This document shows positions 1,956-40,779 of a stretch of 41,584 nucleotides of DNA, one piece after another. Location: NCBI GenBank assembly GCA_024709955.1, contig JANJVS010000209.1:1-41584 (forward strand), written 5' to 3'. The notes beneath the pieces are model-generated. The model was not told the origin of the DNA. It was given only the letters and a program-made list of their open reading frames with translations, and did not search any database. This DNA comes from Rhodocyclaceae bacterium (lineage in GTDB: Bacteria; Pseudomonadota; Gammaproteobacteria; Burkholderiales; Rhodocyclaceae). Every line of letters begins with the position of its first letter. Position 1 is the first letter of the stretch. Made by a program: the position numbers and the translations under genes.

Positions 1956-1979
1956 AAAGTCGGCGCCGGTGGCACGGTG
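1956..1979 (+). repeat. Dispersed 24-bp repeat, copy 1
   Basis: It matches the consensus (AAAGTCGGCGCY + GGCGGGACGGTG) with two changes (T15, C18). AAAAGTCG at 1955-1962 is matched by CGACTTTT at 1999-2006, so this copy is the left half of a degenerate inverted pair spanning 52 bases. Confidence 0.85.
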
Positions 1980-2018
1980 ACCGCTGCCTTGGCCGCCACG
2001 ACTTTTCGGCGCAGGCTC

Positions 2019-2038
2019 ACTTCGGCGCATGCCGAAGT
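2019..2038. repeat. Short perfect inverted repeat between repeat copies 1 and 2
   Basis: ACTTCGGC (2019-2026) and GCCGAAGT (2031-2038) pair perfectly around a 4-base centre (GCAT). No T-run follows, so it is not an obvious terminator. Confidence 0.55.
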
Positions 2039-2060
2039 TAAGCGTAGCGGCCGGAGCCAA

Positions 2061-2084
2061 AAAGTCGGCGCCGGTGGCACGGTG
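2061..2084 (+). repeat. Dispersed 24-bp repeat, copy 2
   Basis: Identical over 24 bases to copy 1 and 105 bases from it. It ends 62 bases before the miaB start codon, so it would lie just upstream of a promoter using the -10 box at 2109. Confidence 0.85.
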
Positions 2085-2146
2085 GGAGGGCCGCTTCCGC
2101 CACGCTGATAAAATTCGTCCCCCTTTTTATTTCCCCGCCCGCCGCC

Positions 2147-3490
2147 ATGACCAAGAAAGTCTTCATCCGCACCTTCGGCTGCCAGATGAACGAGTACGAC
2201 TCGGACAAGATGGTGGATCTGCTCGCCGGCGCGGAGGGCGTGGTCAAGACCGACAAGCCCGAGGAGGCGGACATCATCCTCTTCAACACCTGCTCGGTGC
2301 GCGAAAAGCCGCAGGAGAAGGTGTTCCACGAGCTCGGCCGCGTGAGGAAGCTCAAGGAGACCAAGCCCGGCCTGCTGATCGGCGTCGGCGGCTGCGTCGC
2401 CAGCCAGGAGGGCGGGGCGATCGTCGAGCGCGCGCCCTACGTCGACCTCGTCTTCGGCCCGCAGACCCTGCACCGCCTGCCGGAACTCATCGCCGCGCGA
2501 CGCGCCTCCGGCAAGGCGCAGGTGGATGTCTCCTTCCCAGAGATCGAGAAGTTCGACACGCTGCCTGCCGCGCGCGTCGAGGGCGAGGCCGGCAGCAGCG
2601 CCTTCGTCTCGATCATGGAAGGCTGCTCGAAGTTCTGCACCTTCTGCATCGTGCCCTACACGCGCGGCGAGGAGGTCTCGCGCCCGCTCGACGACGTGCT
2701 CAACGAGGTCGCCGCCCTGGTCGGCCAGGGCGTCAAGGAAGTGACCCTGCTCGGCCAGAACGTGAACGCCTATCGTGGTCTCACCCACGAAGGCGACACG
2801 GTGGACCTCGCCTTCCTCATCGAGACCCTCGCGACGATCCCGCAGATCGAGCGCATCCGCTACACCACCTCGCACCCGCGCGAGATGAGCCAGCGGCTGA
2901 TCGACGTCTACGCGACCACGCCGAAGCTCGCGCCGCACCTGCACCTGCCGGTGCAGTCCGGCTCCGACCGCGTGCTGGCGGCGATGAAGCGCGGCTACAC
3001 GGTGCTCGAATACAAGTCGCTGGTGCGCAAGCTGCGCGCCGCGCGGCCGGAGTTGTCGCTGTCCACCGACTTCATCGTCGGCTTCCCCGGCGAGACCGAG
3101 GAGGACTTCGAGAAGACCATGAAGCTCATCGACGAGATCGGCTTCGACGCGAGCTTCTCCTTCATCTTCAGCCCGCGCCCCGGCACCCCCGCCGCCGAGA
3201 TGGCCGACGACACGCCCGCCGAGCTCAAGACCCAGCGCCTGATGCGCCTGCAGAAGCGCATCGAGGAACTCGCCTTCGCCGTCTCCGAGTCCATGGTCGG
3301 CACGGTGCAGAAGGTGCTCGTCGAGGGCCGCGCCCGCAAGGACGAGCACGAACTCGCCGGCCGCACCGCCAACAACCGCATCGTCAACTTCAAGGGCAGC
3401 GCGCGCCAGATCGGCCAGTTCGTCGACGTGACGATCACCGCCGCGCTGCCCCACAGCCTGCGCGGCGAGGTGGTGATCCGCGAGGACTGA
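2147..3490 (+). CDS. miaB: tRNA-2-methylthio-N6-dimethylallyladenosine synthase MiaB
   Basis: MiaB is a radical-SAM methylthiotransferase that adds a methylthio group to i6A37 of tRNAs reading UNN codons. The 447-residue length is normal. The N-terminal UPF0004 domain has its three cluster-binding cysteines at C12 (FGCQMN), C49 (NTCSVR) and C83 (GGCVA). The radical-SAM cluster motif is C160-x3-C164-x2-C167 (CSKFCTFC). The middle shows SHPREMS and [13 protein letters not shown], and a TRAM domain occupies about residues 380-446. In many relatives miaB heads a run with phoH and ybeY; here those genes do not follow. The next gene is separated by repeat copy 3. Confidence 0.97.
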
Positions 3491-3497
3491 GGCGCGA

Positions 3498-3521
3498 AAA
3501 CCCGGTGTTGGCGGGACGGTG
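3498..3521 (+). repeat. Dispersed 24-bp repeat, copy 3 (diverged)
   Basis: It begins 7 bases after the miaB stop and differs from the consensus at four positions. GTTGGCG at 3507-3513 pairs with CGCCAAC at 3522-3528, outside the 24-mer, to give a 7-bp stem with loop GGACGGTG. Confidence 0.75.
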
Positions 3522-3542
3522 CGCCAACCCATCGGCATGCGC

Positions 3543-3558
3543 TGGCATCGATATTGCA
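3543..3558 (+). promoter_or_regulatory. Candidate sigma-54 (RpoN) promoter
   Basis: TGGCATCGATATTGCA matches the -24/-12 consensus TGGCAC-N5-TTGCA. The invariant GG and GC are present with the required 10 bases between them. The start codon of the secreted-protein gene is 36 bases downstream, with a ribosome site at 3580-3584. Such promoters need an enhancer-binding activator; I did not identify its binding site. Confidence 0.65.
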
Positions 3559-3593
3559 TAACGAGTCCATCCATTCACCGGAGGATTCGCCAG

Positions 3594-4163
3594 ATGCCGA
3601 ACTTGCCGACCACGATGGGCCTCGCGCTCGCCACCCTGCTCTCCGCCTTGCCGGCAACGGCGGCGGAATTTGCCGTGAAGGATTTGTCCGGCCAGACGTA
3701 TTGCCTACCGGCGGCATTCCAGGAAGCCCTGTCGGCCCGCGCGCCTTCCACGCCCCTCTGTTCGCCCCATCCCCCGGGAACGATCGAAGTCGTCATCACG
3801 CCCAAGGCGGCCGAACTGCCGGTCGAGTGCCACGACGACGGGGCGGGCGGCAGCTTCTGCATGTACGCCGCGGACATCTATCTCGCCGCGCAATACCAGG
3901 GCCGGTGGTACGCCAAGACGACCTCCCACGCCTGGACGCCCGTGGACGATCTCGCCCAGCTTCCCGCCGCGTCGCACTGGGCCCCCTGGGGCGGAACCGC
4001 CAGCCTCGGCTTCCAGTTCTACGCCAACAGCATCGACCTGAATACCAGCCGGGTCGTCGCATTGCCCGAAGGCACCGAGGTATACATCGGCATCACCCCG
4101 GCGGGCACCCGGAGGTTCGCGCCCGAGATGGTGACGAGAATCTATCCGTTGCCTTCGCCCTGA
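3594..4163 (+). CDS. Secreted protein of unknown function (189 aa)
   Basis: The ATG at 3594 is chosen because GGAGG lies at 3580-3584 and the protein then opens with a good Sec signal peptide, hydrophobic from about residue 8 and ending ATAAEF near residue 23. The mature part has four cysteines at about residues 35, 53, 72 and 79, which could form disulfides in the periplasm. It is rich in aromatic residues and has no membrane helix. I recognise no family. It follows a sigma-54 promoter candidate and is bounded by repeat copies 3 and 4. It converges on the EF-hand gene. Confidence 0.7.
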   Translation: MPNLPTTMGLALATLLSALPATAAEFAVKDLSGQTYCLPAAFQEALSARAPSTPLCSPHPPGTIEVVITPKAAELPVECHDDGAGGSFCMYAADIYLAAQYQGRWYAKTTSHAWTPVDDLAQLPAASHWAPWGGTASLGFQFYANSIDLNTSRVVALPEGTEVYIGITPAGTRRFAPEMVTRIYPLPSP

Positions 4164-4181
4164 CGGCAACGCACCGACCGA

Positions 4182-4205
4182 AAAGTCGGCGCTGGCGGGA
4201 CGGTG
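4182..4205 (+). repeat. Dispersed 24-bp repeat, copy 4 (consensus)
   Basis: It is an exact consensus copy, 18 bases after the stop of the secreted-protein gene. GGCGGGACGG (4194-4203) pairs perfectly with CCGTCCCGCC (4210-4219), a partial inverted copy, around a 6-base loop. An alternative 6-bp stem GCTGGC/GCCAGC is also possible. It lies between two convergent genes. Confidence 0.88.
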
Positions 4206-4228
4206 CCAGCCGTCCCGCCGCAAACCGC

Positions 4229-5086: not shown

Positions 5087-5193
5087 ACATCCTCCTTTCC
5101 AACCGCTCGGTTGCGGAACACGGCCTCGCCACCCGAAATCGAATCCGTTGGCAAGGAAACAATGCGCATGATGCGCCGCCGGCGGGCAAAGCG

Positions 5194-5217
5194 AAAGTCG
5201 GCGCCGGCGGGACGGTG
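5194..5217 (+). repeat. Dispersed 24-bp repeat, copy 5 (consensus)
   Basis: Exact consensus copy in the region between the divergent EF-hand and binding-protein genes, 107 bases beyond the EF-hand start codon. An A-rich stretch and AAAGTGCGGGGC follow directly. An AT-rich patch at 5300-5313 (TAATAT at 5308-5313) could be a -10 for the plus-strand gene. Confidence 0.9.
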
Positions 5218-5361
5218 CCAAAAAGTGCGGGGCGTCATGAAAGTTGCGCGCCTGCGGCGCGGCGGCGCGGGACCATGGCCACCCCTCACATCGAGCTAAG
5301 GTAATAGTAATATGCCGGCATGAAGGGCGCGACAGCCGCCCGCATGACGAGGGTATCCATC

Positions 5362-6540: not shown

Positions 6541-6548
6541 AAGGCATC

Positions 6549-9155
<2,607 letters not shown>

Positions 9156-9160
9156 CGCAA

Positions 9161-9184
9161 AAACTCGGCGCTCGCGGGACGGTG
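9161..9184 (+). repeat. Dispersed 24-bp repeat, copy 6
   Basis: It lies 5 bases after the kinase stop, in the sense direction, with two changes (C4, C13). Its altered stem CGCTC (9169-9173) still pairs with GAGCG (9184-9188), giving a 5-bp hairpin around the conserved loop. Confidence 0.82.
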
Positions 9185-10602: not shown

Positions 10603-10609
10603 CGCACAC

Positions 10610-14912: not shown

Positions 14913-14936
14913 AAACTCGGTGCTGACAGGACGGTG
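14913..14936 (+). repeat. Dispersed 24-bp repeat, copy 7 (diverged)
   Basis: Four changes from consensus. It fills the gap between the stop of the gene at 14938 and the start of the gene ending at 14901, antisense to both. CTGAC (14923-14927) pairs with GTCAG (14937-14941), which includes bases of the neighbouring stop codon. Confidence 0.72.
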
Positions 14937-14937: not shown

Positions 14938-15372
14938 TCAGGTCAGCAGCGGATGCATCCAGGCGAACAGCACCTGGTCCTGCGCCTCGGCCAGCCGCGC
15001 CAGGTCGGCGAGGTCGAGCACCAGCGCGAGCACCTCCTCCTCCGGCCAGCCTTCCAGTTCATAGGCCTCGGTCGCCGCCAGCTCGTAGGCCACCTGAGTG
15101 AGCGCCTCCTCATCGAGTTCGGCGAGCCGCGCCCTGGCCTCGTCGTCGATGCGCAGCACCCAGGCGCCTTCGTCGGCGACCAGCACGGGCTCGTGGAGAA
15201 TGGCGGCATGCTCGAACTCGTCGCCCGTCAGCAGGCAGTGCAGGGTGGCGAGCTTGGCGATGTCCAGCCCGCGGCGCTCGATGCCGCTCCATTCATCGAG
15301 GGGGTGCATGGATGCGCCGATGGCTTCGAGTTCGCCCTCCTCGGCGGCGACGATATTGACCAGAATGCCCAA
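14938..15372 (-). CDS. Acidic cytoplasmic protein, possibly DUF1877-like (144 aa)
   Basis: I place the start at a TTG (15370-15372) because CCGGAG precedes it with a 7-base spacer and no in-frame ATG lies closer. The protein is soluble and strongly acidic (runs such as EEEVLALVLDLADLARLAEA). The segment LDIAKLATLHCLLTG resembles the helix found in the DUF1877/YfbM family, and MGILVNIV fits its N-terminus; this is only a suggestion. It is flanked on both sides by copies of the 24-bp repeat in the same orientation (copies 7 and 8). It lies just downstream of phoR and may be co-transcribed with it. Confidence 0.65.
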   Translation of the reverse strand: MGILVNIVAAEEGELEAIGASMHPLDEWSGIERRGLDIAKLATLHCLLTGDEFEHAAILHEPVLVADEGAWVLRIDDEARARLAELDEEALTQVAYELAATEAYELEGWPEEEVLALVLDLADLARLAEAQDQVLFAWMHPLLT

Positions 15373-15419: not shown

Positions 15420-15443
15420 AAAGTCGGCGCTGGCGCGACGGTG
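15420..15443 (+). repeat. Dispersed 24-bp repeat, copy 8
   Basis: One change from consensus (C17). It begins 3 bases from the phoR stop codon, antisense to phoR, in the 74-base gap before the next minus-strand gene. Confidence 0.88.
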
Positions 15444-15446: not shown

Positions 15447-16745
15447 TCAGCCGACGCGCTTGGCGGGAAAGGACGCGGCGAAGGTGCTGCCGCTGCCGAG
15501 CTTGCTCCTGATGGCGAGCGTGGCCTGGTGGCGTTCCAGCACGTGCTTGACGATGGCCAGCCCCAGCCCGGTGCCGCCGCAATCCCGCGAGCGGCCGCGG
15601 TCCACCCGGTAGAAGCGCTCCGTCAGGCGCGGGATGTGGCGCGAATCGATACCGATGCCGGTGTCGGCCACCTCGAACGCCGCGCCGCCGTCCTGGGCGT
15701 GCCAGCGCAGGGTGATGCGGCCGCCGCTCGGGGTGTAGCGCACCGCGTTGCTGGCCAGATTGCTGAAGGCGCTGTGCAATTCGCGGCTGCTGCCGAACAG
15801 CACCGCCGGACCGCTGCTTTCCAGCAGCACCTCGTGGCGTCCGCCGGACAGGGCCACGGTTTCCTCGCGCACGGCGGCGAGCAGGGCCTCGACGTCCACG
15901 GCCTCCTCCTGCGGGGGCGCGTCGGTTTCGAGGGTGGACAGGGTGAGCAGGTCCTCGATGAGGCGCTGCATGCGGCGCGCGTGGTCGAGGGCCAGGTCGA
16001 GGTAATGGGCCACCTCCTCGGGCGGCGTGTCGGCGACGCCATCGCGCGCGGTTTCGAGGAAGCCGAGCACCACCGTCAGCGGCGTGCGCATCTCGTGGGA
16101 GACGTTGGCGACGAAGTCGCGCCGCACCGTCTCCAGCCGGTCGAGCTGGGTCAGGTCCTCGACGAGCAGCAGGGTGCGTCCGGCAGAGAAGGGCGCCCCG
16201 CGGATATGCAGCACCCGCCCCGGGCTCCGCAGCGGCCGCACCGTCAGCGGCGCCCGCGCCTCGCCCGCCTGCTTCTGGCGGCGGAGGAATTCGATGAACT
16301 CGGGCTCGCGCACCAAGTGGGCCACCGGCATGCCGATGTCGCGCTTGCCGTCGAGGCCGAGCAGCAGCTCGGCGCGCGGGTTGATCCACTCGATGGTGCC
16401 GCCCGGGTCCAGGATGACCACGCCCTCGGGCAGGGCCTCGGCGGCGAGGCGGAAACGCTCCATCATCTCCTGGAGCTCGGCGCGCTGCTGGGCGGCCTGG
16501 CGCGCGCGGCGGTGCAGCGCCATGAAGGCGCGCCCCCAGGCGCCGCCCGCCTCGGGCAGCGGCGCCCCGAGGGGCTGCTCCGCCCACTCCGTGAGCCGGG
16601 CAATCTGCCGCTCGTGGCGCGCGAGCAGCAGCAGGGCGAGGGCGCCGACCGCCAGCAGGGCCGCCAGCGGCCCGACGAGGAACCAGGCCGGCAAGCCGAT
16701 GGCGGCGAGCCAGGCGCCGGCCTTGAGCGGGCCGCCGTGGTTCAA
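15447..16745 (-). CDS. phoR: Phosphate regulon sensor histidine kinase PhoR
   Basis: The 432-residue kinase opens with membrane segments at about 8-42 and no large periplasmic domain, as in PhoR proteins that sense phosphate status through the Pst transporter and PhoU. A PAS domain covers about 95-195. His217 in FVANVSHEMRTPLT is the phosphorylation site. ATP-binding motifs are SNLASNAVRYTP, VADTGIGI and GGTGLGLAIVKH. The start is a TTG directly after the phoB stop, so translation is coupled. With phoB it forms the phosphate-starvation two-component system. No pst or phoU gene is in the window. Confidence 0.95.
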   Translation of the reverse strand: MNHGGPLKAGAWLAAIGLPAWFLVGPLAALLAVGALALLLLARHERQIARLTEWAEQPLGAPLPEAGGAWGRAFMALHRRARQAAQQRAELQEMMERFRLAAEALPEGVVILDPGGTIEWINPRAELLLGLDGKRDIGMPVAHLVREPEFIEFLRRQKQAGEARAPLTVRPLRSPGRVLHIRGAPFSAGRTLLLVEDLTQLDRLETVRRDFVANVSHEMRTPLTVVLGFLETARDGVADTPPEEVAHYLDLALDHARRMQRLIEDLLTLSTLETDAPPQEEAVDVEALLAAVREETVALSGGRHEVLLESSGPAVLFGSSRELHSAFSNLASNAVRYTPSGGRITLRWHAQDGGAAFEVADTGIGIDSRHIPRLTERFYRVDRGRSRDCGGTGLGLAIVKHVLERHQATLAIRSKLGSGSTFAASFPAKRVG

Positions 16746-18800: not shown

Positions 18801-19670
18801 ATGAAGAAGACCCTGATCACCCTGCTCGCAGCGGCCGTCACCTTCGCCGGCCTCGGCTTCGGCGCCGCCGACGCGGAGGCCAAGCGCCTCGGCGGCGGCA
18901 AGTCCTTCGGCATGTCGCGCAACACCACCGCGCCGTCCCAGCAGGCGGTGCCGCCCAAGCCGGCGAGCCCCGCCCAGCAGGCCGCGCCCGCGTCGGCCGC
19001 CAGTGCCACGGCAGCGACCCAGCCCGGCAAGCGCGGCTGGCTCGGCCCGGTCGCCGGCCTCGCCGCCGGCCTCGGCCTCGCCGCGCTCGCCGCCCATCTG
19101 GGCTTCGGCGAGGAGATGGCTTCCTTCCTGATGATCCTGCTGCTGGTCGGCGGCGCCTTTTTGCTGTTCCGTCTCCTGACGCGCTCGCGTCAGCCCCAGC
19201 CCGCGCTGCGCTATGCGGGCGCGGCCCTCCCGCGGGACGAGCCCATGCGCTTCGATCCCCCGAATCTCGGCGCTGGCGGCACGGTTAGCGCGGCCATTCC
19301 CGCCGGCTTCGACGTCGAGGGCTTCCTGCGCCAGGCCAAGCTCAATTTCGTGCGCCTGCAGGCGGCCAACGACCGCGGCGAGATGGACGACATCAAGAGC
19401 TTCACCACCCCCGAGGTGTTCGCCGAGATCCAGATGCAGTACGAGGAACGCGGCCGCGCGTCCCAGCGCACCGACGTCCATGAGCTCGAAGCTGAGCTGC
19501 TGGAGGTCGCCAGCGAGCCCGGCCGGCATATCGCCAGCGTGCGCTTCCGTGGCCTGCTGAGCGAGGAGCGCGACGCCGCCCCGACGCCCTTCGACGAGGT
19601 CTGGCACTTGACCAAGCCCGCCGACGGCGGCAGCGGCTGGACGGTCGCGGGCATCCAGCAGGTCGCCTGA
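18801..19670 (+). CDS. Tim44-like domain membrane protein
   Basis: The start at 18801 follows CGAGGAG and gives a cleavable signal-like segment (residues 4-26). A low-complexity Pro/Ala/Gln region follows, then two hydrophobic segments at about 78-98 and 105-122. Residues about 170-289 form a Tim44-like domain (GFLRQAKLNFVRLQAANDRGEMDDI, TPEVFAEIQ, FDEVWHL). In bacteria these proteins are inner-membrane anchored with unclear function. The linker between the membrane part and the Tim44 domain contains repeat copy 9 in frame, encoding NLGAGGTV at about residues 155-162. Its stop overlaps the ubiJ start by one base. Confidence 0.85.
   Translation: MKKTLITLLAAAVTFAGLGFGAADAEAKRLGGGKSFGMSRNTTAPSQQAVPPKPASPAQQAAPASAASATAATQPGKRGWLGPVAGLAAGLGLAALAAHLGFGEEMASFLMILLLVGGAFLLFRLLTRSRQPQPALRYAGAALPRDEPMRFDPPNLGAGGTVSAAIPAGFDVEGFLRQAKLNFVRLQAANDRGEMDDIKSFTTPEVFAEIQMQYEERGRASQRTDVHELEAELLEVASEPGRHIASVRFRGLLSEERDAAPTPFDEVWHLTKPADGGSGWTVAGIQQVA
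19263..19286 (+). repeat. Dispersed 24-bp repeat, copy 9, inside the Tim44-like gene
   Basis: Four changes from consensus. It lies in frame in a flexible linker of the coding sequence, where 8 extra codons would be tolerated. Confidence 0.6.
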
Positions 19671-20864: not shown

Positions 20865-20887
20865 AAAGTCGGGGTTGTGGATTGGTG
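20865..20887 (+). repeat. Dispersed repeat, copy 10 (degenerate), left arm of an inverted pair
   Basis: The 23-base sequence begins AAAGTCGG and ends TTGGTG. It is in sense orientation 20 bases after the haem-protein stop and faces copy 11 across 4 bases. Confidence 0.6.
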
Positions 20888-20891: not shown

Positions 20892-20915
20892 CACCGTATT
20901 CCCAGCACCGACTTT
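20892..20915 (-). repeat. Dispersed 24-bp repeat, copy 11, right arm of an inverted pair
   Basis: On the minus strand it has five changes from consensus. It lies 26 bases after the stop of the PAS gene, in that gene's sense direction. With copy 10 it can form a 51-base hairpin whose ends AAAGTCGG/CCGACTTT pair perfectly. Confidence 0.72.
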
Positions 20916-20941: not shown

Positions 20942-21898
20942 TCAGCCCTCGTCGTCCAGCATCAGCAGGGCCGCGTGTTCCACCTCTTCCGGCAGGCGCA
21001 CGAGACGCAGGGTGGCCTTGAGCCAGCGCGTGCCGCCCTTCGGCGGCACCAGCCCGAGGCGGATGCCGCCGTTTTCCGCGCCGAGGTCGCCACGCAGCAG
21101 GCGATGCACCGGATGGGCCTGCTGCGCGAGGGAGGCGCCGCCGGCATCGAGCCAGCGCAGGTTCAGCTTGTCCAGCCGCGTGCCCGCCGCCAGATGCATG
21201 TCGAGCAGGCTTTCCGCCGCGCTGTTCGCCAGCAGGATGCGCCCCTGCGCATCGACCACCAGCACCGCCACGGGTAAGGCGGAAAACACCGCGAGGAATC
21301 CCTCCGCCGTCTTGCGCCGCGCGGCTTCCGCTTCCATATATTCGGTGATGTCCTCCTTGACCGCCATGTAATTGGCGATCTTGCCCTCCGCGTCGAAAAC
21401 CGGGGAAATCGAGGCGCGCTCCCAGTAGAGCCGGCCGTCCTTGCGCCGGTTGTGAAAGGTGCCGCGCCACTCCTTCCCGCCGGTGATGGTCTTCCACAAC
21501 TGGCGGTATTCCGTCGGCGTCGTCTCCCCCGACTTGAGCAGGCGCGGGTTCTGGCCGATCACCTCATCCACGCCATAACCGGTGGTCTCGACGAACTTCG
21601 GGTTGGCATAGATGATCTTGCCTTCGGCGTCGGTGACGATGATGGTCGCCGGGCTCTGTTCCAGCGCGTGCATCAGGAGGCGTTGGCGCTGGCTCGCCGA
21701 GGTGTATTTTTCGCGCGACAGGGCGGTGGCGACGCGCTTGGCGCTGTCCTGGGCGCGCGCCCGCGCATCGCTTTCCTTGAGCCAGGTGCGTAGGGTGTTG
21801 GTGGACACCCCATATTCGCGCGCCAGGTCGAGCAGCGGCGTCTTGCCTTCGCGCATGCGCTCGACCGCCTGCTCCTTGCTTTGCTTGCTGTGACGCAT
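20942..21898 (-). CDS. Transposase-type HTH fused to two PAS domains
   Basis: The 318-residue protein starts with a helix-turn-helix at about 3-45 (KEQAVERMREGKTPLLDLAR, GVSTNTLRTWLKE) of the kind found in IS3-type OrfA proteins. A helical linker follows. PAS 1 at about 75-185 is a full NifL/LOV-type domain (SPATIIVTDAEGKIIYANPK, GQNPRLLKSGETT) with a PAC segment ending AVKEDITEY; the LOV cysteine motif is absent. PAS 2 covers about 200-315. There is no kinase, GGDEF or other output domain. It may be a sensory DNA-binding regulator that recruited a transposase HTH. No IS remnant surrounds it. Confidence 0.82.
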   Translation of the reverse strand: MRHSKQSKEQAVERMREGKTPLLDLAREYGVSTNTLRTWLKESDARARAQDSAKRVATALSREKYTSASQRQRLLMHALEQSPATIIVTDAEGKIIYANPKFVETTGYGVDEVIGQNPRLLKSGETTPTEYRQLWKTITGGKEWRGTFHNRRKDGRLYWERASISPVFDAEGKIANYMAVKEDITEYMEAEAARRKTAEGFLAVFSALPVAVLVVDAQGRILLANSAAESLLDMHLAAGTRLDKLNLRWLDAGGASLAQQAHPVHRLLRGDLGAENGGIRLGLVPPKGGTRWLKATLRLVRLPEEVEHAALLMLDDEG

Positions 21899-29903: not shown

Positions 29904-30703
29904 GCTGCCCCTTTCTCTTCAGTCGGCGCGGCTTCCCAGGCCTTGACGCGCTCGATCATTTCCTGGGCGAAGGCCAGATAGGCCTGCGCCCCCTTCGACG
30001 CCTTGTCGAACAGCACCCCCGGCACGCCGTAGCTCGGCGCCTCGGCGAGGCGCACGTTGCGCGGCACCAGGGTGGAGAACACCTTGTCGCCGAAATGCTG
30101 TTCGAGCTGGGCCGAGACCTGGTTCGACAGCGTCGAGCGCGGGTCGAACATCACGCGCAGCAGGCCGATGATCTTGAGGTCGCGGTTCAGATTGGCATGC
30201 ACCTTCTTGATGGTGTTCACCAGGTCCGACAAGCCTTCGAGCGCGTAGTACTCGCACTGCATCGGGATGATGACGCCATGGGCCGCGCACAGGCCGTTGA
30301 GGGTCAGCATCGACAAGGAGGGCGGGCAGTCGATCAGCACGAAGTCGTAGTCGTAGCGGTGCTCGCGCAGCGCGCCCTTGAGGCGCATCTCGCGCAGGTC
30401 GAGATTGACCAGCTCCACCTCGGCACCCGCCAGGTCGCGGTTGGCCGGCAGCACGTCGAAGGCGGCGGCGGGCGAGGTCTGGCGCACGTCCGCCAACGGC
30501 TTGAGGCCGACCAGCAGCTGGTAGACCGAGCGGTTGCTCAGGCCGCGCTTGTCGATGCCGCAACCCATGGTGGCGTTGCCCTGCGGATCGAGGTCTACCA
30601 GCAGGGTGCGCTTGCCGGCCAGGGCGAGGGCGGCGGCCAGGTTCACCGAGGTGGTGGTCTTGCCGACCCCGCCTTTCTGGTTGGCGATGGCGAAGATGTG
30701 CAT
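29900..30703 (-). CDS. parA: Chromosome partitioning ATPase ParA
   Basis: The start at 30703 gives the usual [20 protein letters not shown], containing the deviant Walker A motif. Further ATPase motifs are DLDPQGNAT and LIDCPPSLS. The 267-residue length is typical of chromosomal Soj/ParA. Its start overlaps the rsmG stop (TGATG). With ParB it segregates the origin region. Confidence 0.97.
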   Translation of the reverse strand: MHIFAIANQKGGVGKTTTSVNLAAALALAGKRTLLVDLDPQGNATMGCGIDKRGLSNRSVYQLLVGLKPLADVRQTSPAAAFDVLPANRDLAGAEVELVNLDLREMRLKGALREHRYDYDFVLIDCPPSLSMLTLNGLCAAHGVIIPMQCEYYALEGLSDLVNTIKKVHANLNRDLKIIGLLRVMFDPRSTLSNQVSAQLEQHFGDKVFSTLVPRNVRLAEAPSYGVPGVLFDKASKGAQAYLAFAQEMIERVKAWEAAPTEEKGAA

Positions 30704-31320
30704 CAGACTCTCTCCAATCGAAGCAAATGCCGCTGCGCCCCCAGGCCGGGAACGCCCAATTCCTGACTCGCCGCCAGCTGCCAGCCGGCGGGCAATGCCG
30801 CGACCTCGTCCGCCGGATAGACACCCTTCATCGCCCACAGGCAGGGGGCGAGATGGCCGGCGAGACCGACGAAGTCGGCGAGGCTGGCGAAGGCGCGCGA
30901 AATCGCCGCGTCGAAGGTATCACGAAGCTCCTCGACCCGGCCGCAGTGAACGACGACATTGTCGAGACCAAGCTCGATCTTCGCCTGGCGCTGAAAGGCG
31001 GCCTTCTTTTCCACCGCCTCGACCGAGGTGATCGACCAGCCGGGCCGGGCGATGGCGAGCACGATGCCGGGCAGGCCGGCGCCGCTGCCGATGTCGGCGA
31101 GGCGGACACACCGTCCCGCCAGCGCCGACTTTTCCAGCACGGGCAACACGGCGAGCGAGTCGAGCAGATGATGGGTGACCATCTCCCGCGGATCGCGGAT
31201 CGCCGTCAGGTTGTACACCTTGTTCCATTTGACCAGCAGGGCGAGGTAGGCGGCGAGCCTGTCCTCGGCCCCGGCGGGCAGATCGAGCCCGAGCGCGGCG
31301 ATGCCCTCGGCCAGATTCAC
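30703..31320 (-). CDS. rsmG: 16S rRNA (guanine-527-N7) methyltransferase RsmG
   Basis: The 205-residue enzyme (GidB) methylates G527 of 16S rRNA. Conserved motifs include [25 protein letters not shown] and [18 protein letters not shown]. The start is GTG, overlapping the mnmG stop by four bases. Between DSLAVLP and DIGSG the protein holds about seven residues more than I remember for the family (E. coli has 13 residues between DS and DVG, here 20), and exactly here lies repeat copy 12, encoding KSALAGRC. The fold should tolerate this surface loop. Confidence 0.96.
31109..31132 (-). repeat. Dispersed 24-bp repeat, copy 12 (consensus), inside rsmG
   Basis: Exact consensus copy in the sense strand of rsmG, in frame. 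It coincides with an extra loop just before the SAM-binding motif. Confidence 0.88.
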
Positions 31321-33197
31321 TGGCGCCCCCTCAGCTTCTTGAGATGCACGAGCAGGATCGAGATCGCCGCCGGGGTGACCCCCTGGATGCGGCTCGCCTG
31401 GCCGACGGTCTGCGGCCGATGCTGGGCGAGACGCTGGCGCACCTCGATGGAGAGTCCGTTCAGTTGCGCGTAGTCGAGGTCGGCGGGGATCGCCATGGCT
31501 TCCTGCTGGGCCATCTTCGCCACGTCCTCCTTCTGGCGCTCGATGTAGCCGTGGTACTTGGCCTGGATGTCCACCTGCTCGATGACCTCCGGCGCCTCGA
31601 TGGCCACGCCGGCACCGGGCAGGGTCATCAGGTCCTGGTAGCCGATCTCGGGACGGCGCAGCAGGTCGAACAGCGAATATTCGCGCTCGATCGGCTTGCC
31701 GAGCACGCGCTCCACCTCGTGCATCGCCACCACATTGGGGTTGATCCAGACGCCCTTGAGGCGCTCCACCTCGGCGGCGATGGCGTCGCGCTTGCGGTTG
31801 AAGGCCTCCCAGCGCGCGTCGTCCACCAGGCCGAGACGCCGGCCGACCTCGGTCAGCCGCAGGTCGGCGTTGTCCTCGCGCAGGGAAAGGCGGTACTCGG
31901 CGCGGCTGGTGAACATGCGATAGGGTTCGGTCACGCCGCGCGTGATCAGGTCATCCACCAGCACCCCGAGGTAAGCCTCGTCGCGGCGCGGCCACCAGCC
32001 TTCCTCCCCTCTCGCCAGGCGCGTGGCGTTGAGACCGGCGAGCAGCCCCTGGGCGGCGGCCTCCTCGTAGCCGGTGGTGCCGTTGATCTGCCCGGCGAAG
32101 AACAGGCCGCCGATGGCCTGGGTCTCCAGCGTCGCCCGGAGGGCGCGCGGGTCGAAGTAGTCGTATTCGATGGCATAGCCGGGCCGGGTGATGTGGGCAT
32201 TTTCCAGGCCGCGGATCGAATGCACCAGCTCGAGCTGCACGTCGAAGGGCAGGCTGGTGGAGACGCCCTGCGGGTAGTACTCGTGGGTGCTCAGGCCCTC
32301 GGGCTCCAGGAAGACCTGGTGGCTGTCCTTGCCGGCGAACTTGTGGATCTTGTCCTCGATGGACGGACAGTAGCGCGGGCCGACGCCCTCGATCACTCCG
32401 GTGAACATCGGCGAGCGGTCGAGGCCGGCGCGGATGATGTCGTGGGTGCGGGCGTTGGTGTGGGTGATCCAGCAGGGAATCTGGCGCGGGTGGTGCTCCG
32501 GTTTGCCGAGGAAGGAGAACACCGGCACCGGCGTGTCGCCCGGCTGCTCCTGCATCGCAGAGAAGTCGATGGTCTTGCCGTCGAGGCGCGGCGGCGTGCC
32601 GGTCTTGAGACGGCCGACCGGCAGCTTGAGTTCGCGCAGGCGCGCCGCCAGCGAGAGGGAAGGGGGGTCGCCGAAGCGGCCGGCCCGGTAGTTTTCCAGG
32701 CCGACATGCACCAGGCCATTCAAGAAGGTGCCGGCGGTGAGCACCACGGCCGGCGCCTCGAAGCGCACGCCGAGCTGGGTGACGACGCCGGCGACGCGGT
32801 CGCCGACGACGCTGATGTCGTCCACCGCCTGCTGGAAGATCGTCAGGTTCGACTGGTTCTCCAGCCGTCCGCGGATCGCCTGGCGGTAGAGCGCCCGGTC
32901 GGCCTGGGCGCGCGTCGCGCGCACCGCCGGCCCCTTCGAGGCATTAAGGGTGCGGAACTGGATACCGGACTCGTCGGTGGCCGCCGCCATCGCGCCGCCG
33001 AGCGCATCGACCTCCCTGACCAGATGGCCCTTGCCGATGCCGCCGATGGATGGATTGCAGGACATCGCACCGAGGGTCTCGATGTTGTGGGTCAGCAGCA
33101 GGGTGCGTGCGCCCAAGCGCGCGGCGGCGAGCGCGGCCTCGGTGCCGGCATGGCCCCCGCCGATCACGATCACATCGAAGCGGGTTGGAAATATCAT
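31317..33197 (-). CDS. mnmG: tRNA uridine-5-carboxymethylaminomethyl modification enzyme MnmG
   Basis: MnmG (GidA) works with MnmE to modify U34 of certain tRNAs, using FAD. The start at 33197 gives [20 protein letters not shown] with the FAD-binding GGGHAG motif. [19 protein letters not shown] and [17 protein letters not shown] are conserved motifs. Length, 626 residues, is normal. The ribosome site is weak. A possible -10 TATCAT lies at 33340-33335 on the minus strand. Repeat copy 13 and two parS sites lie upstream. Confidence 0.97.
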
Positions 33198-33279: not shown

Positions 33280-33303
33280 AAAGTCGGTGCTGGCGACACG
33301 GTG
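33280..33303 (+). repeat. Dispersed 24-bp repeat, copy 13
   Basis: Three changes from consensus. It lies 82 bases upstream of the mnmG start, on the opposite strand, within the probable mnmG leader. Confidence 0.8.
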
Positions 33304-33998: not shown

Positions 33999-34002
33999 AT
34001 AA

Positions 34003-34026
34003 AAAGGGAGGGCTTGCCCTCCCTGT
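34003..34026 (-). terminator. Terminator of the liv operon (minus strand)
   Basis: GGGAGGGC (34006-34013) and GCCCTCCC (34016-34023) pair with a 2-base tip (in practice a 4-base loop). TTTTT follows on the minus strand, downstream of livF. On the plus strand there is no T-run, so it chiefly serves the minus-strand operon. Confidence 0.8.
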
Positions 34027-34044
34027 CCCGAGCGCGGCGCGCCG

Positions 34045-34809
34045 TCAGGCGGCGTGCTTGCCGCCCAGACCCAGATAGGCCTCGACCACCTTGGGGTCGT
34101 CCTCCAACTGGTCGGAGGGTCCTTCAAGGGCGATCTCGCCGGTCTCCAGCACGTAGCCGTAGTCGGATACCTGCAGCGCGGCGCGCGCGTTCTGCTCCAC
34201 CAGCAGCACCGCCACGCCGAGCTTGCGCAGATCGGCGACGACACGGAAAATCTCGCGCACGATCAGCGGCGCCAGGCCGAGGCTCGGCTCGTCGAGCATC
34301 AGCAGACGCGGCTGCGCCATCAGCGCCCGGCCGACCGCGAGCATCTGGCGCTCGCCGCCCGAGAGCGTGCCGGCCATCTGCTGGTGGCGCTCCTTGAGGC
34401 GCGGGAAGATCGCATACACCTTCTCCATCGTCTCGCCCTCGTCGCGGAAGCCGAGGCGGCGTCGCATGAAGGCGCCGAGCAGCAGGTTGTCGGCGACGCT
34501 CATCTCGCCGAACAGCTCGCGCTTCTCGGGCACCAGGGTCATGCCGCTGGCCACCATGCGCTCGATGTCGATATGGGCCGGCGCCTCGCCGCGGAAGCGC
34601 ACCTCGCCGCGCGCCACCGGCAGCACGCCCATGATCGCCGAGAGCAGCGTGGTCTTGCCGGCGCCATTGGGGCCGATCACGGTGACGATCTCGCCGGGAC
34701 GCACCTTGAGCGAGACATGGTGCAGGGCCTCGACCTTGCCGTAGGACACGCAGAGGTCATTCACCTCGAGAATCGGCGCCACTTCTTCCACTCCCGTCAT
34801 TCCGCTCAT
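34045..34809 (-). CDS. livF: Branched-chain amino acid-type ABC transporter ATPase LivF
   Basis: The 254-residue ATPase has Walker [10 protein letters not shown], signature LSGGERQ and Walker [24 protein letters not shown] and EAYLG near the end are characteristic of LivF. The start at 34809 overlaps the upstream stop (ATGA); an ATG 9 bases later is an alternative. It is the last gene of the operon livK-livH-livMG-livF. The substrate could be branched-chain amino acids or another amide or carboxylate compound. Confidence 0.94.
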
Positions 34810-36608
34810 TCCACGCCACCCAGATAGGCCTCGATCACCGCCGGGTCGTTCTGCACCTCGTGCGGCAGCCCCTCGGCGATCTTCTTGCCGAACTCCATCA
34901 CCACGACGCGGTCGGCCAGGTCCATGACGAACTCCATGTCGTGCTCCACCAGCAGGATGCCCATGCCCTCGGCGCGCAACTGCTTGAGCAGCTCGGCCAG
35001 GGCCTGCTTCTCCAGGAAGCGCAGACCGGCGGCCGGCTCGTCGAGCAGCAGCAGGCAGGGATCGGCCGCCAGCGCGCGGGCGATCTCGACGATGCGCTGC
35101 TTGCCGAGCGGCAGGCTGCCGGCGGCGTCGCGCAGATGCTCGCCCAAGCCGACGCGCGCGCACTGGCGCGCCGCCTCGGCGAGCAGCCGCGCCTCCTCCT
35201 CGCGCTCCAGGTGCAGCATCGCCGACGGCACGCCGTGGCGGCCGCGCATGTGGGCGCCGAGGGCGACGTTCTCCAGCACGCTCATCCCCGGCAGCAGGCG
35301 CACATGCTGGAAGGTGCGGCTCATGCCCAGGTGCGCGATGGCGCGCGAACTGCGGCCATCGACGCGCTCGCCGCGGAAGCGCACCTCGCCCGAGGTCGGC
35401 GGATTGACGCCGGTGATCAGGTTGAACAGCGTGGACTTGCCGGCGCCGTTCGGGCCGATCAGCGCGAGAATCTCGCCGGCATCGACATGCAGGCTCATGC
35501 GATCGTTGGCGACCAGGCCGCCGAACTGCGTGACCGCGTCCCTGACTTCCAGCAGCGGCGTGCCCGCCGCCGGCACGGCGCGGCGCGGCAGCGGCTCGCC
35601 GGAAAACTCGGCGCCGGCGGGACGGTGCGCGCCGCCCGCGGCGGGCAGCCAGCGCGCCAACCAGGGCCAGAGACCGTCGCGCGCGCGATGCAGCACGAAG
35701 ATCATCAGCAAGCCGAAAGCGATCACCTCGAAGTTGCCCGAGGCGCCGAACAGCTGGGGCAACAGGTCCTGCAGCCACTGCTTGAGCACAGTGATCACCG
35801 CCGCGCCGACCAGCGCGCCCCAGACATGGGCCGCGCCGCCAATCACCGCCATGAACAGGTATTCGATGCCGATGTGCAGGCCGAAGGGCGTCGGATTGAC
35901 GAAGCGCTGCAGGTGGGCGTAGAGCCAGCCCGACAGGCAGGCGAACAGCGCGGCGACCAGGAACACGATCATCTTGGCGCGCGCGGTGTCGACGCCCATC
36001 GCCTCGGCCATCACCACGCCGCCCTTGAGGGCGCGGATGGCGCGGCCGGCGCGCGAGTCGAGCAGGTTGCTCGACAGCCACAGCGCCGCCAGCAGCACGA
36101 CCCAGATCAGGTAGTAGAAATGGCGGCCATCGCGCAGCTCGACGCCGGCGATGCTCAGCGGCGGGATGCCGCCGATGCCGGTGTGGCCGCCGAGGAATTC
36201 GAGGTTGCCGAACAGGAAATACAGCGAGATACCCCAGGCGATGGTGCCGAGCGGCAGGTAGTGGCCCGACAGACGCAGCGTCAGCGCCCCGAGCAGCAGG
36301 GCGACCAGGGCGGTCAGCAGCAGGCCGGCGGCGAGGCCACCCCAGGGATTGGCGAGCCAGGCCGGCAGGCCGGCGGCGGTGGTCAGCCAGGCAGTGGCGT
36401 AGGCGCCCATGCCGACGAAGGCGGCCTGGCCGAAGGAGGTGAGGCCGCCCACGCCGGTCAGCAGCACCAGGCCGAGGGCCACCAACGCGTAGAGGCCGAT
36501 GTAGTTGAGCAGCGTGACGTGAAACTCGGGCAGCACCAGCGGCCCGAGGGCAAGCAGGACGACGAAGAGGGCGACGAGGCGGCGCGCGGTGAGCAGTTCC
36601 CGCATCAT
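34806..36608 (-). CDS. LivM-LivG fusion: permease plus ATPase in one chain
   Basis: The 600-residue protein joins two usually separate subunits. Residues about 10-320 are a LivM permease with many membrane helices ([20 protein letters not shown] is typical). Residues about 348-600 are a LivG ATPase: Walker [39 protein letters not shown] as signature and [10 protein letters not shown] as Walker B. Such fused permease/ATPase proteins are known in betaproteobacteria. The linker at about 328-335 is encoded by repeat copy 14. The start overlaps the livH stop; 36605 is an alternative ATG. Confidence 0.94.
35604..35627 (+). repeat. Dispersed 24-bp repeat, copy 14, in the LivM-LivG linker
   Basis: One change from consensus (C4), antisense to the gene. 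It encodes HRPAGAEF in the linker between the membrane and ATPase halves. Confidence 0.88.
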
Positions 36609-37639: not shown

Positions 37640-37656
37640 CTCAGTCCATTCAAACG

Positions 37657-37688
37657 ACGAGGGCGCCGGAACGGCCCGGCGCCCTCGT
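37657..37688 (-). terminator. Hairpin between the binding-protein gene and livH (probable attenuator)
   Basis: ACGAGGGCGCCGG and CCGGCGCCCTCGT form a perfect 13-bp stem with a 6-base loop. On the minus strand only a short T-run (CGTTTG) follows, so partial termination or RNA stabilisation is likely. This would give more binding protein than permease. Confidence 0.7.
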
Positions 37689-37705
37689 TTTGTTGCAGGC
37701 GGCGC

Positions 37706-38851
37706 TTACTGGATCAGCTTCCAGTCGCCGTTTTCGACCCTGACCATCACGCGCGCGCGCTGGTCGAAGCCCAGGTGGTCCTGCGCCGACATGTTGACGA
37801 TGCCGTGCGAGACCGTGACGTTCTTCAAGCCCTCCAGCGCGTCGCGCAGCGCGGCGCGGAACTCCTTGCTGCCCGGCTTGGCCTTCTTGAGCGCGGCCGG
37901 CACGGCGTTCTGCAAGAGCAGGCCGGCGTCCCAGGCGTGGGCGCCGAAGGTGGAGGTGGTGCCCTTGCCGTGCGCCGCCTCATACTTGGCGACGTAGTCG
38001 GAGGCGACCTTCTTGATCGGGTTGTCGGCCGGCAGCTGCGCGGCCACCAGCACCGGGCCGGCGGGCAGGAAGGTGCCCTCGCAGTCCTTGCCGCAGACGC
38101 GCAGGAAGTCCTTGTTGGCGACGCCGTGGGTCTGGTAGTAGGCGCCCTTGTAGCCCTTCTCCTTGAGCGCCTTCTGCGGCAGCGCGGCGGGAGTGCCGGC
38201 GCCGGCCACCAGCACGGCGTCCGGCTTCGCCGCCATGACCTTGAGCACCTGGCCGGTCACCGAGGTGTCGGAGCGGTTGTAGCGCTCGTTGGCGACGATG
38301 GCGAGCTTGCGCGCCTCGGCGATCTTGGAAAACTCGCGGTACCAGCCCTCGCCGTAGGCGTCGGCGAAGCCGATGAAGGCGACCGTCTTCACGCCGGCGT
38401 TGATCATGTGCTCGACGATCGCCGTGGACATCTGGATGTCGTTCTGCGGCGTCTTGAACACCCAGCGGCGCTTGGCGTCGACCGGATCGACGATGGCGGC
38501 CGAGGCGGCCATCGAGATCATCGGCGTCTCGGCCTCGGCGGCGACGTCCACCATCGCCAGCGAGTTGGGCGTGATGGAGGAGCCGACGATGACGTCCACC
38601 TTGTCCTCGGTGATCAGCTTGCGCGTGTTCTTCACCGCCGTGGTGGTGTCGGTCGCGTCGTCGAGGATGATGTAGTTGATCTTCTCGCCGCCGATGCTGG
38701 TCGGCATCAGCGCGAAGGTGTTCTTCTCGGGAATACCGAGCGAGGCGGCCGGGCCGGTGGCCGAGACAACGACGCCGACGTTGATGTCGGCCAGGGCCGG
38801 GACGGCCAGCGCGGCCGCGACGGCGGCGGCGAGCAGGTGTTGCGTCTTCAT
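37706..38851 (-). CDS. Periplasmic substrate-binding protein of the Liv-type transporter
   Basis: The ATG at 38851 has GGAGGAG upstream and begins a signal peptide ending PALADI near residue 22. The 381-residue protein is a type-1 periplasmic binding fold (VGVVVSATGPAASLGIPEKN; YIILDDATDTTTAVKNTRKL; RRWVFKTPQND). It delivers substrate to LivH/LivM. Sequence alone does not decide between amino acids and aromatic or other acids. TATAAA at 38879-38874 may be the -10 of the operon; the -35 is poor. Confidence 0.92.
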   Translation of the reverse strand: MKTQHLLAAAVAAALAVPALADINVGVVVSATGPAASLGIPEKNTFALMPTSIGGEKINYIILDDATDTTTAVKNTRKLITEDKVDVIVGSSITPNSLAMVDVAAEAETPMISMAASAAIVDPVDAKRRWVFKTPQNDIQMSTAIVEHMINAGVKTVAFIGFADAYGEGWYREFSKIAEARKLAIVANERYNRSDTSVTGQVLKVMAAKPDAVLVAGAGTPAALPQKALKEKGYKGAYYQTHGVANKDFLRVCGKDCEGTFLPAGPVLVAAQLPADNPIKKVASDYVAKYEAAHGKGTTSTFGAHAWDAGLLLQNAVPAALKKAKPGSKEFRAALRDALEGLKNVTVSHGIVNMSAQDHLGFDQRARVMVRVENGDWKLIQ

Positions 38852-38917
38852 GTGGAAAGCTCCTCCGTGGGTTTTTATAAACAACGATTTGCGGCGAAGC
38901 GGCGAATTTAACATCGC

Positions 38918-38943
38918 GCCGCCCGTCCGTCCATGCGGGCGGC
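38918..38943. terminator. Hairpin between the TSUP gene and the liv operon
   Basis: GCCGCCCG (38918-38925) pairs with CGGGCGGC (38936-38943). A T-run follows at 38948-38952 on the plus strand, not on the minus strand. It may still act after the TSUP gene, whose stop is 12 bases away. Confidence 0.45.
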
Positions 38944-38954
38944 AGGCTTTTTCC

Positions 38955-39734
38955 CTATGCCGCCAAGGTATCCCAGCCGATCTTGGCGATCAGCAGCAGG
39001 GTCATGGTCAGGAAGACGACGCGCACGAAGCCGCTGCCGTGGCGGATCGCCAGCTTGCTGCCGAGCTGGGCGCCGGCGATGTTGCACGCCGCCATGCCGA
39101 GCGCCAGCGCCCACAGCACGTGGCCCTGCGGCGCGAACAGCAGGATCGCGCCGGCGTTGGTCGCCGCATTGACGATCTTGGCGCTGGCCGAGGCGTGCAG
39201 GAAATCCATGCCGTAGAGGCGCACGAAGGCGAAGATCATGAAGCTGCCGGCGCCCGGGCCGAAGATGCCGTCGTAGAAGCCGAGCAGGGCGCCGACCGCG
39301 ACCGCCACCCAGAACAAGCGGTGCGGCGGCACGCGCGAGGCCCGCGCCGCGCGGCCGAAATCCGGCTTGAGCAGCGTGTAGACCGCCACCGCCAGCAGCA
39401 GCACCAGCACCAGCGGCCGCATCACCTCCTTGGGCAACCAGGCCGCCACCGCCGCGCCGCCGAAGGAAAACAGGAAGGCCGAGACGGCGGTCGGCAGCAC
39501 CACCGCCCAGGGCATGGTCACCTCGCGCGCGTAGCGCCGCGCCGCGTTCAGGGTGCCGAAGATCGAGGCCACCTTGTTGGTGCCGAGCAGGGTTGCCGGC
39601 GCCTCGCGCGGCAGCGTGGCGAACAGCGCCGGCACCTGGATCAGCCCGCCGCCGCCGGCCACCGCGTCCACGAAGCCGGCGAAGGCCGCCGCCACGAGCA
39701 GCATGAGCCAGACGGGATCGAGCGGCAGCGCCAT
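38955..39734 (-). CDS. TSUP-family (TauE/SafE) membrane permease
   Basis: The 259-residue protein has about eight hydrophobic segments and the TSUP repeats: GFVDAVAGGGGLIQVPAL near the N-terminus and GFYDGIFGPGAGSFMIFAF in the second half. Family members move sulfite, sulfoacetate or related anions. The ATG at 39734 overlaps the stop of the sensor gene (TGATG); a GTG three bases upstream is an alternative. Repeat copy 15 spans this stop/start junction and supplies the upstream bases where a ribosome site would lie, so translation is probably coupled. Confidence 0.9.
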   Translation of the reverse strand: MALPLDPVWLMLLVAAAFAGFVDAVAGGGGLIQVPALFATLPREAPATLLGTNKVASIFGTLNAARRYAREVTMPWAVVLPTAVSAFLFSFGGAAVAAWLPKEVMRPLVLVLLLAVAVYTLLKPDFGRAARASRVPPHRLFWVAVAVGALLGFYDGIFGPGAGSFMIFAFVRLYGMDFLHASASAKIVNAATNAGAILLFAPQGHVLWALALGMAACNIAGAQLGSKLAIRHGSGFVRVVFLTMTLLLIAKIGWDTLAA

Positions 39735-40726
39735 CACCGTGCCGCCGGCGCCGACTTATCCTGTTCCGCCCCGCCCGGTTCGCCGACCCAGAAGTCGCTG
39801 CCCCGGTCGAGGAATTCCTCGTAGGGAATGTAGTGGGAACCGTCGCAGGAAAAGGTCAGGCCGACGATGCCGTTGAACAGGTTGACCGTGCCGGAGCGCA
39901 GATAGAGGGTCTCGTCGCCGAGCCGCAGCGGGCGGAACTGGTCGAGCACCGCGCGCACCTTGTCCTGCGGAATCAGCGCCTCGGCGGGATAGGGCTGACG
40001 CGGATAGGCGAGGCAGATGTCCGGATCGACCAGCGCCTCGATGTCGAGCAGGCGGTAGCGGTAGGGATCGGCGATCTGCCAGATCACCGCGCGCGAGCTG
40101 GAGAAGTGCAGCATCGCGTGATACACGCCATGGAAGCGCATCAGCTCGGCGAGCACGCCGAGCACCGTGTCGAGATGGCGGTCCATCTCGCTCTCGGTGC
40201 GGCACTGCTGGAACACCGTGCCGCGGATCGACGGATCGCCCTTGATCTGGCGCCACTCGCGCGGTTCGGCGTAGAGCGCGCGCGTCAGCGGCAGGTCGCG
40301 CAGGCCGAAGTAGGCGCCGATCCAGCCGAGCAGCTCGCCTTGTTCGTCGCGCACCGAGCGCAGCGCCGTCAGCGAGGGGCGCTTTTCCTTGAGGCTGATG
40401 TAGGACTCGGACAGCAGCAGCGAGGCGCCCTCCACCAGGCCCTGCACGTAGGGTCGCCCGGAGCGGTCGCGGCCGAAGCCCGGCAGCGGACCGGCATGAC
40501 CCATGTTGTCGCTGATCTGCACGAAGCGCCGATCCACCACGTAGAGATGCTTGCAGTAGGGCAGGGTCTTAAGCGTCGCGGCGAGCGCCGCGTCGAGCCG
40601 TTCGCGGTCGCCCCAGACGGTCCGGCATGCGGCCGCGAGCCGCTGCAGAGGCGCGCGCAGCAGGCCCATCAGCGCCTTGCGCTGGCTGGCGATGCTTTCC
40701 TGCAGGGTTTCCTTGGCGACTTCCAT
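39734..40726 (-). CDS. PDC/Cache-like sensor domain protein without output domain
   Basis: The 330-residue protein has no signal peptide, no membrane helix and no recognisable kinase, GGDEF or EAL domain. Residues about 15-150 look like a PDC/Cache sensor fold (LYVVDRRFVQISDNMG; RDRSGRPYVQGLVEGASLLL; LTALRSVRDEQGELLGWIGAYFGL). The rest is helical and beta-mixed with no match I know. Its last codons (KSAPAAR and the stop) are encoded by repeat copy 15, and copy 16 lies upstream, so direct repeats bracket the gene. Coupled to the TSUP gene. Confidence 0.78.
   Translation of the reverse strand: MEVAKETLQESIASQRKALMGLLRAPLQRLAAACRTVWGDRERLDAALAATLKTLPYCKHLYVVDRRFVQISDNMGHAGPLPGFGRDRSGRPYVQGLVEGASLLLSESYISLKEKRPSLTALRSVRDEQGELLGWIGAYFGLRDLPLTRALYAEPREWRQIKGDPSIRGTVFQQCRTESEMDRHLDTVLGVLAELMRFHGVYHAMLHFSSSRAVIWQIADPYRYRLLDIEALVDPDICLAYPRQPYPAEALIPQDKVRAVLDQFRPLRLGDETLYLRSGTVNLFNGIVGLTFSCDGSHYIPYEEFLDRGSDFWVGEPGGAEQDKSAPAAR
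39735..39758 (-). repeat. Dispersed 24-bp repeat, copy 15, across a stop/start junction
   Basis: Two changes from consensus (T1, C18). It encodes the C-terminus of the sensor gene; the TGA stop is formed from its last two bases plus the next A, and the TSUP ATG begins immediately after. Confidence 0.86.
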
Positions 40727-40755
40727 GGGTCCGTTTCCTCGGCTGGCGGGCGGCG

Positions 40756-40779
40756 CACCGTCCCGCCGGCGCCGACTTT
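40756..40779 (-). repeat. Dispersed 24-bp repeat, copy 16 (consensus)
   Basis: Exact consensus copy one base after the mnmE stop, in the sense direction. CGGCG (40768-40764) pairs with CGCCG (40755-40751) around loop GGACGGTG. Confidence 0.9.

Follow-up and report, generated by a model that had tools for sequence, protein, structure and literature searches.

A dispersed 24-base word proposed as a DNA uptake sequence-like tag in part of the Rhodocyclaceae

Results

Copies of the word at the locus

We analyzed a repeat that is dispersed through a stretch of 41,584 nucleotides from a Rhodocyclaceae bacterium (GenBank assembly GCA_024709955.1, contig JANJVS010000209.1), referred to here as the window. 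The repeat is a 24-base word, AAAGTCGGCGCYGGCGGGACGGTG, that is found past stop codons, between genes and within genes, on either strand (Table 1). There were 11 matches with three or fewer mismatches in the window, and none in 100 dinucleotide shuffles. A looser scan of the window added four copies, at 3498, 14913 and 19263 and, the most degenerate, at 20892 on the minus strand. Three extra matches with 7 mismatches were at the background level (2-3 per shuffle in three shuffles). The initial annotation had counted 16 copies, four of them exact. All four exact copies were found, and 15 of the 16 stand. The remaining one, at 20865 on the plus strand, is a half-copy that shares AAAGTCGG with the word and has 11 mismatches in 24 bases.

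All results that depend on genes, here and below, use calls from our own unannotated caller, seeded on codon-position GC. A first gene caller was dropped because its strand choices in the window were judged wrong. As had been claimed, seven copies are located no more than 30 bases past a stop codon (3498, 4182, 9161, 14913, 15420, 20892 and 40756). Three are inside called genes (19263, 31109 and 35604), and at 39735 the copy runs into the stop codon of the minus-strand gene 39734-40726, whose TGA consists of the final two bases of the copy plus the A that follows. The gene that contains the copy at 31109 is presumably rsmG, and the motif or a degenerate form of it was present at the matching place in all 9 congeners aligned. 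No known RNA family was found at gathering score when the window was searched.

Table 1. Copies of the 24-base word in the window, the spacer X between two of them, and X-like units in the compared stretches (L numbers). R-X-R denotes two copies around X.
Position	Strand	Feature	Mismatches	Context
1956..1979	+	motif copy, left end of R-X-R composite	2	motif scan
1980..2060	+	X spacer of R-X-R composite		inverted CGACTTT and hairpin
2061..2084	+	motif copy, right end of R-X-R composite	2	within ~426 bases absent from G013/G016
3498..3521	+	motif copy	4	7 bases past stop of + gene 2147-3490
4182..4205	+	motif copy	exact	18 bases past stop of + gene 3594-4163
5194..5217	+	motif copy	exact	between divergent genes
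9161..9184	+	motif copy	2	5 bases past stop of + gene 6549-9155
14913..14936	+	motif copy	4	1 base past stop of - gene 14938-15372
15420..15443	+	motif copy	1	3 bases past stop of - gene 15447-16745
19263..19286	+	motif copy	4	within called gene 18801-19670 (+)
20892..20915	-	degenerate motif copy	5	26 bases past stop of - gene 20942-21898
31109..31132	-	motif copy, reads EKSALAGR	exact	within called gene 30703-31320 (-)
33280..33303	+	motif copy	3	5' side of - gene called 31317-33173 (open reading frame to 33377)
35604..35627	+	motif copy	1	within called gene 34806-36608 (-)
39735..39758	-	motif copy	2	over end of - gene 39734-40726
40756..40779	-	motif copy	exact	1 base past end of - gene 40781-41584
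L212:1643-1705	-	X-like unit		
L242:11924-11989		X-like unit		
L244:1301-1364		X-like unit		
L244:3510-3574		X-like unit		

Copy number and distribution across genomes

The word is abundant throughout the genome that contains the window (G000; 3.51 Mb in 237 contigs; other G numbers denote comparison genomes). With three or fewer mismatches allowed, we found 652 copies in G000, 315 on the plus strand and 337 on the minus strand, compared to 0 and 0 for a reversed control. Therefore, the excess is genome-wide, the copies are not confined to the window, and the repeat family proposed in the initial annotation is real. In 406 kb of G000 (the window and 20 other stretches, ~12% of the genome), there were 95 copies with 0-4 mismatches, 18 with 5-6 and 56 with 7. 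Simulated sequence gave 1 match at 4 mismatches, 7 at 5-6 and 70 at 7. Conservation of the motif is sharply bounded, extending solely to an A in front of the first base. The word is 22-25 bases long and occurs about once per 4-6 kb. The correlation between GC content and copies per 10 kb was 0.54 (rho) in G017 and 0.03 in G002.

The genus of G000 was represented by 19 genomes, of which 18 had 95-652 copies and the other, G005, had none; the reversed control matched once over all 19, in G012. Among 199 genomes of the family, more than 100 copies were found in six genera only (g1, g2, g9, g62, g70 and g88). One genome of g47 had 36 copies and another had none, and other genomes of the family had 13 or fewer. 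In other families of the order (338 genomes), no genome had more than 5. In the sampled genomes, only six genera had high copy number, all within one GTDB family. The matches listed in an exact-match scan of GTDB genomes were mostly from Rhodocyclaceae metagenome-assembled genomes, including Sulfuritalea and Sulfurisoma. Loci fetched from these two genera contained extra copies beyond the matched one, and single loci from Thiobacillus, Azonexus and Casimicrobiaceae contained no further copies.

A few motif-poor genomes contain clustered copies (four in 6 kb of G097:C104, three in 5 kb of G245:C3, and also G123:C1), which may represent DNA transferred from motif-rich lineages. Exact 22-base matches also occurred in 49 stretches of viral contigs.

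Dialects of the word

The most conserved positions are TCGG and CGG blocks on either side of a more variable stretch, making the word bipartite. Its form differs between lineages, with TG, CG, CA or CAC at the 3' end. The 3' end is ACGG-TG in G000, ACGG-CAC in G017, G002 and G004, and mostly ACGG-CG in G009 and G026. In G016, GCGG replaces ACGG, giving AAACTCGGCGCTGGCGGGGCGG-CG; a core pattern demanding ACGG had only 9 matches there, compared to 257-570 in each of the remaining genomes of the genus that carry the motif.

One genome has two forms. There were 23 copies of TCGGCGGCTTCGGGACGGC with at most one mismatch (8 exact) in G002, and 0-1 in each of the other 18 genomes. Six of these copies are in the 400 kb of G002 that was compared to G017 (see below). 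Five occupy sites that have the standard motif in G017, and the sixth had no counterpart that we could see. The TCGGCGGCTTCGGGACGGC form amounts to an identical multi-base change at unlinked sites, and the dialect of G002 may be in transition. A separate family of 12-mer repeats in G002 (L229-L248), made up of AATGGACAATCT and words that overlap it, numbers 12-13 copies over 400 kb.

Single copies mostly form in place and some composite units vary as whole blocks

To see how copies arise, we compared 400 kb each of G017 and G002, which are 87-89% identical. Single copies account for 77 of the 92 in the G017 sample. For 61 of the 68 G017 copies with a flank match, both flanks were found together in G002. 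At 54 of these sites the copy was single, and the motif was kept in 53, a site being scored as kept if it matched one of the two G002 forms with at most five mismatches in 18. The length between the flanks was equal at 34 of the 54 sites and differed by no more than 6 bases at 45.

Coding copies were compared to proteins of the motif-free genome G005. It was possible to align 44 of 116 as protein, drawing on 702 kb of the ~2.3 Mb of G005, with some alignments evidently to paralogues (25-35% identity). The net change in length was zero in 16 cases and negative in 11, with 1-5 additional residues in 13 and at least 8 in 4. For example, the motif-bearing EYSALTGRHY aligned with EYAELTGRRY of G005. 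The retention of sites in G002 and the protein alignments to G005 therefore indicate that single copies mostly arise by substitution within existing sequence.

Composite units contain a minority of the copies, and some of these units are gained or lost as blocks. A 54-base unit joins some of the copies in G017 and G002; an inverted copy makes up its second half, giving a hairpin, and the one that was folded was more stable than its shuffles (z -3.1). The 54-base units are tandem in places and are in frame within one gene. This gene has one word in G017 (L217 near 6767) and three tandem units in G002 (L239 near 3810-3940), where they encode a proline-rich linker. In G000, five pairs of copies are 96-105 bases apart around a hairpin-bearing spacer, X, in a unit of ~100 bases (R-X-R). 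X is a hairpin element of roughly 60 bases; two 24-base words flank it in G000, and the full motif is missing beside it in G017 and G002. An Rfam match to anti-hemB (RF02837) was found at L212:6185-6276 (+) in G017. The window pair at 1956-2084 is inside ~426 bases that are missing from G013 and G016. Seven composite entries of G017 had both flanks in G002, and four of these (3 loci) were absent from G002 as blocks of 61-126 bases.

Repetitive extragenic palindromic (REP) and REPIN elements are dispersed, often after stop codons, and the composite units described here contain inverted halves. Rickettsia palindromic elements (RPEs) occur within reading frames. The initial annotation had called the repeat insertable, a small mobile or regulatory element. 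It seems quite unlikely that the family is a small non-autonomous mobile element (REP/REPIN-, RPE- or miniature inverted-repeat transposable element-like) that inserts as a unit. The missing blocks and the tandem 54-base units do fit such an element, and for a minority of composites the earlier idea holds. For single copies, a mobile 24-base element is largely refuted by the in-place sites and the overlay on codons: most coding copies take the place of existing codons instead of adding eight, and additions of at least eight residues were few (4 of 44), unlike the in-frame insertions of RPEs. A single copy does not form a hairpin (folding z 0.19), and in this it differs from both REP/REPINs and RPEs. 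We looked for the suggested Y1 (REP-associated tyrosine transposase, RAYT-type) gene. It was not found in G000 and 13 other genomes of the genus (14 of 19, some of them incomplete assemblies) and was found in the other five, leaving most carriers of the word, unlike REP/REPIN systems, with no Y1 detected. Many copies are inside genes, which also differs from REP/REPINs.

Placement in genes, past stops and in gaps

Copies within called genes make up 39 of 93 in G000, 44 of 69 in G017 and 33 of 54 in G002, where ~90% of the sequence is called coding. These 116 copies are distributed over the three codon phases as 61, 53 and 2. Intergenic copies with an adjacent stop codon were within 30 bases of it in 33 of 46 cases in G000, 18 of 21 in G017 and 11 of 15 in G002, compared to 24, 16 and 15%, respectively, for random intergenic placement. 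The accumulation past stop codons, together with the stable fold of the composite, might suggest a transcription terminator or another signal at the level of RNA. We consider this very improbable, as stop-adjacent copies are found in both orientations (34 along the gene and 28 opposite to it), many copies are inside called genes, and a single copy has no stable structure. Orientation and coding location led us to reject an RNA terminator. In the G000 sample, neighboring copies at least 400 bases apart tended to point in the same direction (53 vs 26), and this was not the case in G017 (37 vs 45) or G002 (44 vs 54).

We annotated the longest motif-free gap in each of the two 400-kb stretches. 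In G017 it spans 29 kb and contains transposase genes of the IS4/5, IS3, IS21 (two IstB genes) and Mutator types, along with an ABC transporter, an HlyD-family gene and ordinary genes. In G002 it spans 15 kb and contains an rRNA operon.

Conservation of the DNA word

Conservation was measured in stretches of 15 genomes around one gene, which we take to be mnmG. Over 380 site-pairs, identity was 0.814 in the element and 0.741 in the nearby flank (gaps counted as differences), with a dip to 0.59-0.70 directly beside the motif. At coding sites, identity at third codon positions was 0.734 in the motif and 0.577 in the flanks, and it was higher in the motif at 29 of 33 sites (Wilcoxon p 1.4e-5). 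The opposite was true of second positions (0.798 vs 0.909; higher in the motif at 12 of 33 sites). Random control positions gave 0.613 vs 0.646 at third positions (p 0.03, in the opposite direction) and 0.922 vs 0.928 at second positions. Qualifying alignments and gene calls were available for 54 of the 94 sites (33 of them coding) and for 64 of the 93 controls (61 of them coding), and the per-site averages are based on these. Because a single ancestral site can enter through several genomes, the sites lack independence and the p-values are underestimates. The effect was smaller between G017 and G002 (third positions 0.842 vs 0.769, second positions 0.866 vs 0.935; 51 of 61 syntenic sites, those with large length differences excluded). 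Because third positions are more conserved in the motif and second positions less, we conclude that the DNA word is held while the protein there is free to vary.

Discussion

The copy number, the evolution in place, the constraint on the DNA, the contents of the two gaps examined and the dialects together lead us to propose that the 24-base word is a DNA uptake sequence-like system in part of the Rhodocyclaceae. The proposal is by analogy with known systems, and we give it a probability of about 0.6. The parallel with neisserial uptake sequences drawn in the initial annotation proved a good lead, with a shared anatomy of copy number, dialects and permissive placement.

A strong preference for uptake of DNA with a short motif is described for two families, the Neisseriaceae, with DNA uptake sequences (DUS), and the Pasteurellaceae, with uptake signal sequences (USS) (PMC7811141). 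USS and DUS are said to be "not inserted elements" and to be under-represented in newly acquired segments and rRNA genes (PMC7811141). Single copies of the word likewise change in place, the composites being the exception. Like DUS, the word is present in hundreds of copies or more in both orientations, with the strands alike, and has dialects across lineages and two within one genome (PMC3630211, PMC2397512). Within the core genome, DUS are conserved where the sequence is permissive (PMC2397512), and they are absent from recently acquired genes (PMC3630211, PMC2397512). The word is also found in permissive places, where it was conserved above its surroundings in the 15-genome set, and between G017 and G002 at third positions only. 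Intragenic uptake motifs have been described (PMC2346458). USS arise by point mutation, as single copies of the word mostly do, and are scarce where coding sequence is constrained, in acquired DNA and in rRNA genes (PMC7811141). The two annotated gaps, with transposase genes in one and an rRNA operon in the other, may reflect a similar pattern. It is unrelated in sequence to DUS, which have 12 bases, and to the USS motif AAAGTGCGGT (PMC2346458), compared to which it is a longer, bipartite word.

Several observations weigh against an uptake function. The word is longer than the 10-12 bases of uptake motifs (PMC2346458), and its density is lower. Inverted pairs are said to be common for USS and DUS (PMC12616744) and are few here. 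Copies are spaced more evenly than expected by chance in G002 (p 0.008, and less than 1 in 5000), and not in G017 (p 0.24 and 0.36). Between G017 and G002, conservation of the whole motif did not exceed that of its wider flanks (coding 0.868 vs 0.873, intergenic 0.865 vs 0.876), unlike neisserial DUS, with 97% identity compared to 85% in their surroundings (PMC2397512). ComEC was over its curated cut-off in 55 of 61 genomes and was equally common in those without the motif, including G005. Minor pilins are known or predicted receptors in the described systems (PMC3868556, PMC12061091, PMC12616744). Our comparison of pilins (G017, G005 and G036; 30 loci) gave no clear receptor candidate, and no equivalent of the neisserial ComP was identified; PilQ and ComEA were not searched for.

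The word could instead be a landmark for a protein that binds the chromosome, such as a nucleoid organizer or a recombination or repair site, with no role in uptake. A landmark of this kind predicts the same conservation of the DNA and the same evolution in place, and it suits a word that is long and bipartite and that ComEC does not track. The strands are equally used in G017 (140 and 139 copies in the whole chromosome, 47 plus and 45 minus in 400 kb), which speaks against a polar role such as that of FtsK-orienting polar sequences (KOPS) or Chi. A housekeeping protein of the chromosome would not usually show such a patchy distribution over genera or such a change of dialects, and on the whole a landmark, the main rival to an uptake tag, seems unlikely. 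We also think it unlikely that the word belongs to a landmark code, unrelated to uptake, in which a DNA-binding system would label the chromosome every few kb, rewrite the label into a new dialect at many sites, as G002 appears to do, and copy some labels as hairpin units. A regulatory role of the word is possible.

If the word is an uptake tag, the natural-transformation machinery would include a DNA receptor at the cell surface that prefers DNA containing it. Uptake and recombination would then favor DNA of the same kind, and the word would accumulate by substitution wherever genes tolerate change, with some composite hairpin units spreading as blocks. We infer from the features described above that a protein reads the word, that this reader is within the uptake machinery, and that uptake bias and recombination maintain the word. 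Our search of the literature (open-licence PMC text) gave no paper that matched the motif strings, none that paired uptake sequences with Rhodocyclaceae or Rhodocyclales, and none on a dispersed repeat in Sulfuritalea; among the papers listed by other searches, none appeared to treat uptake sequences of this family.

If an uptake function is confirmed, the Rhodocyclaceae would be the third bacterial family with such a tag and a third independent origin, in environmental bacteria. A new lineage would then be available in which to test why tags exist, by molecular drive or for the recognition of kin, and DNA that has moved between lineages could be recognized by its tag.

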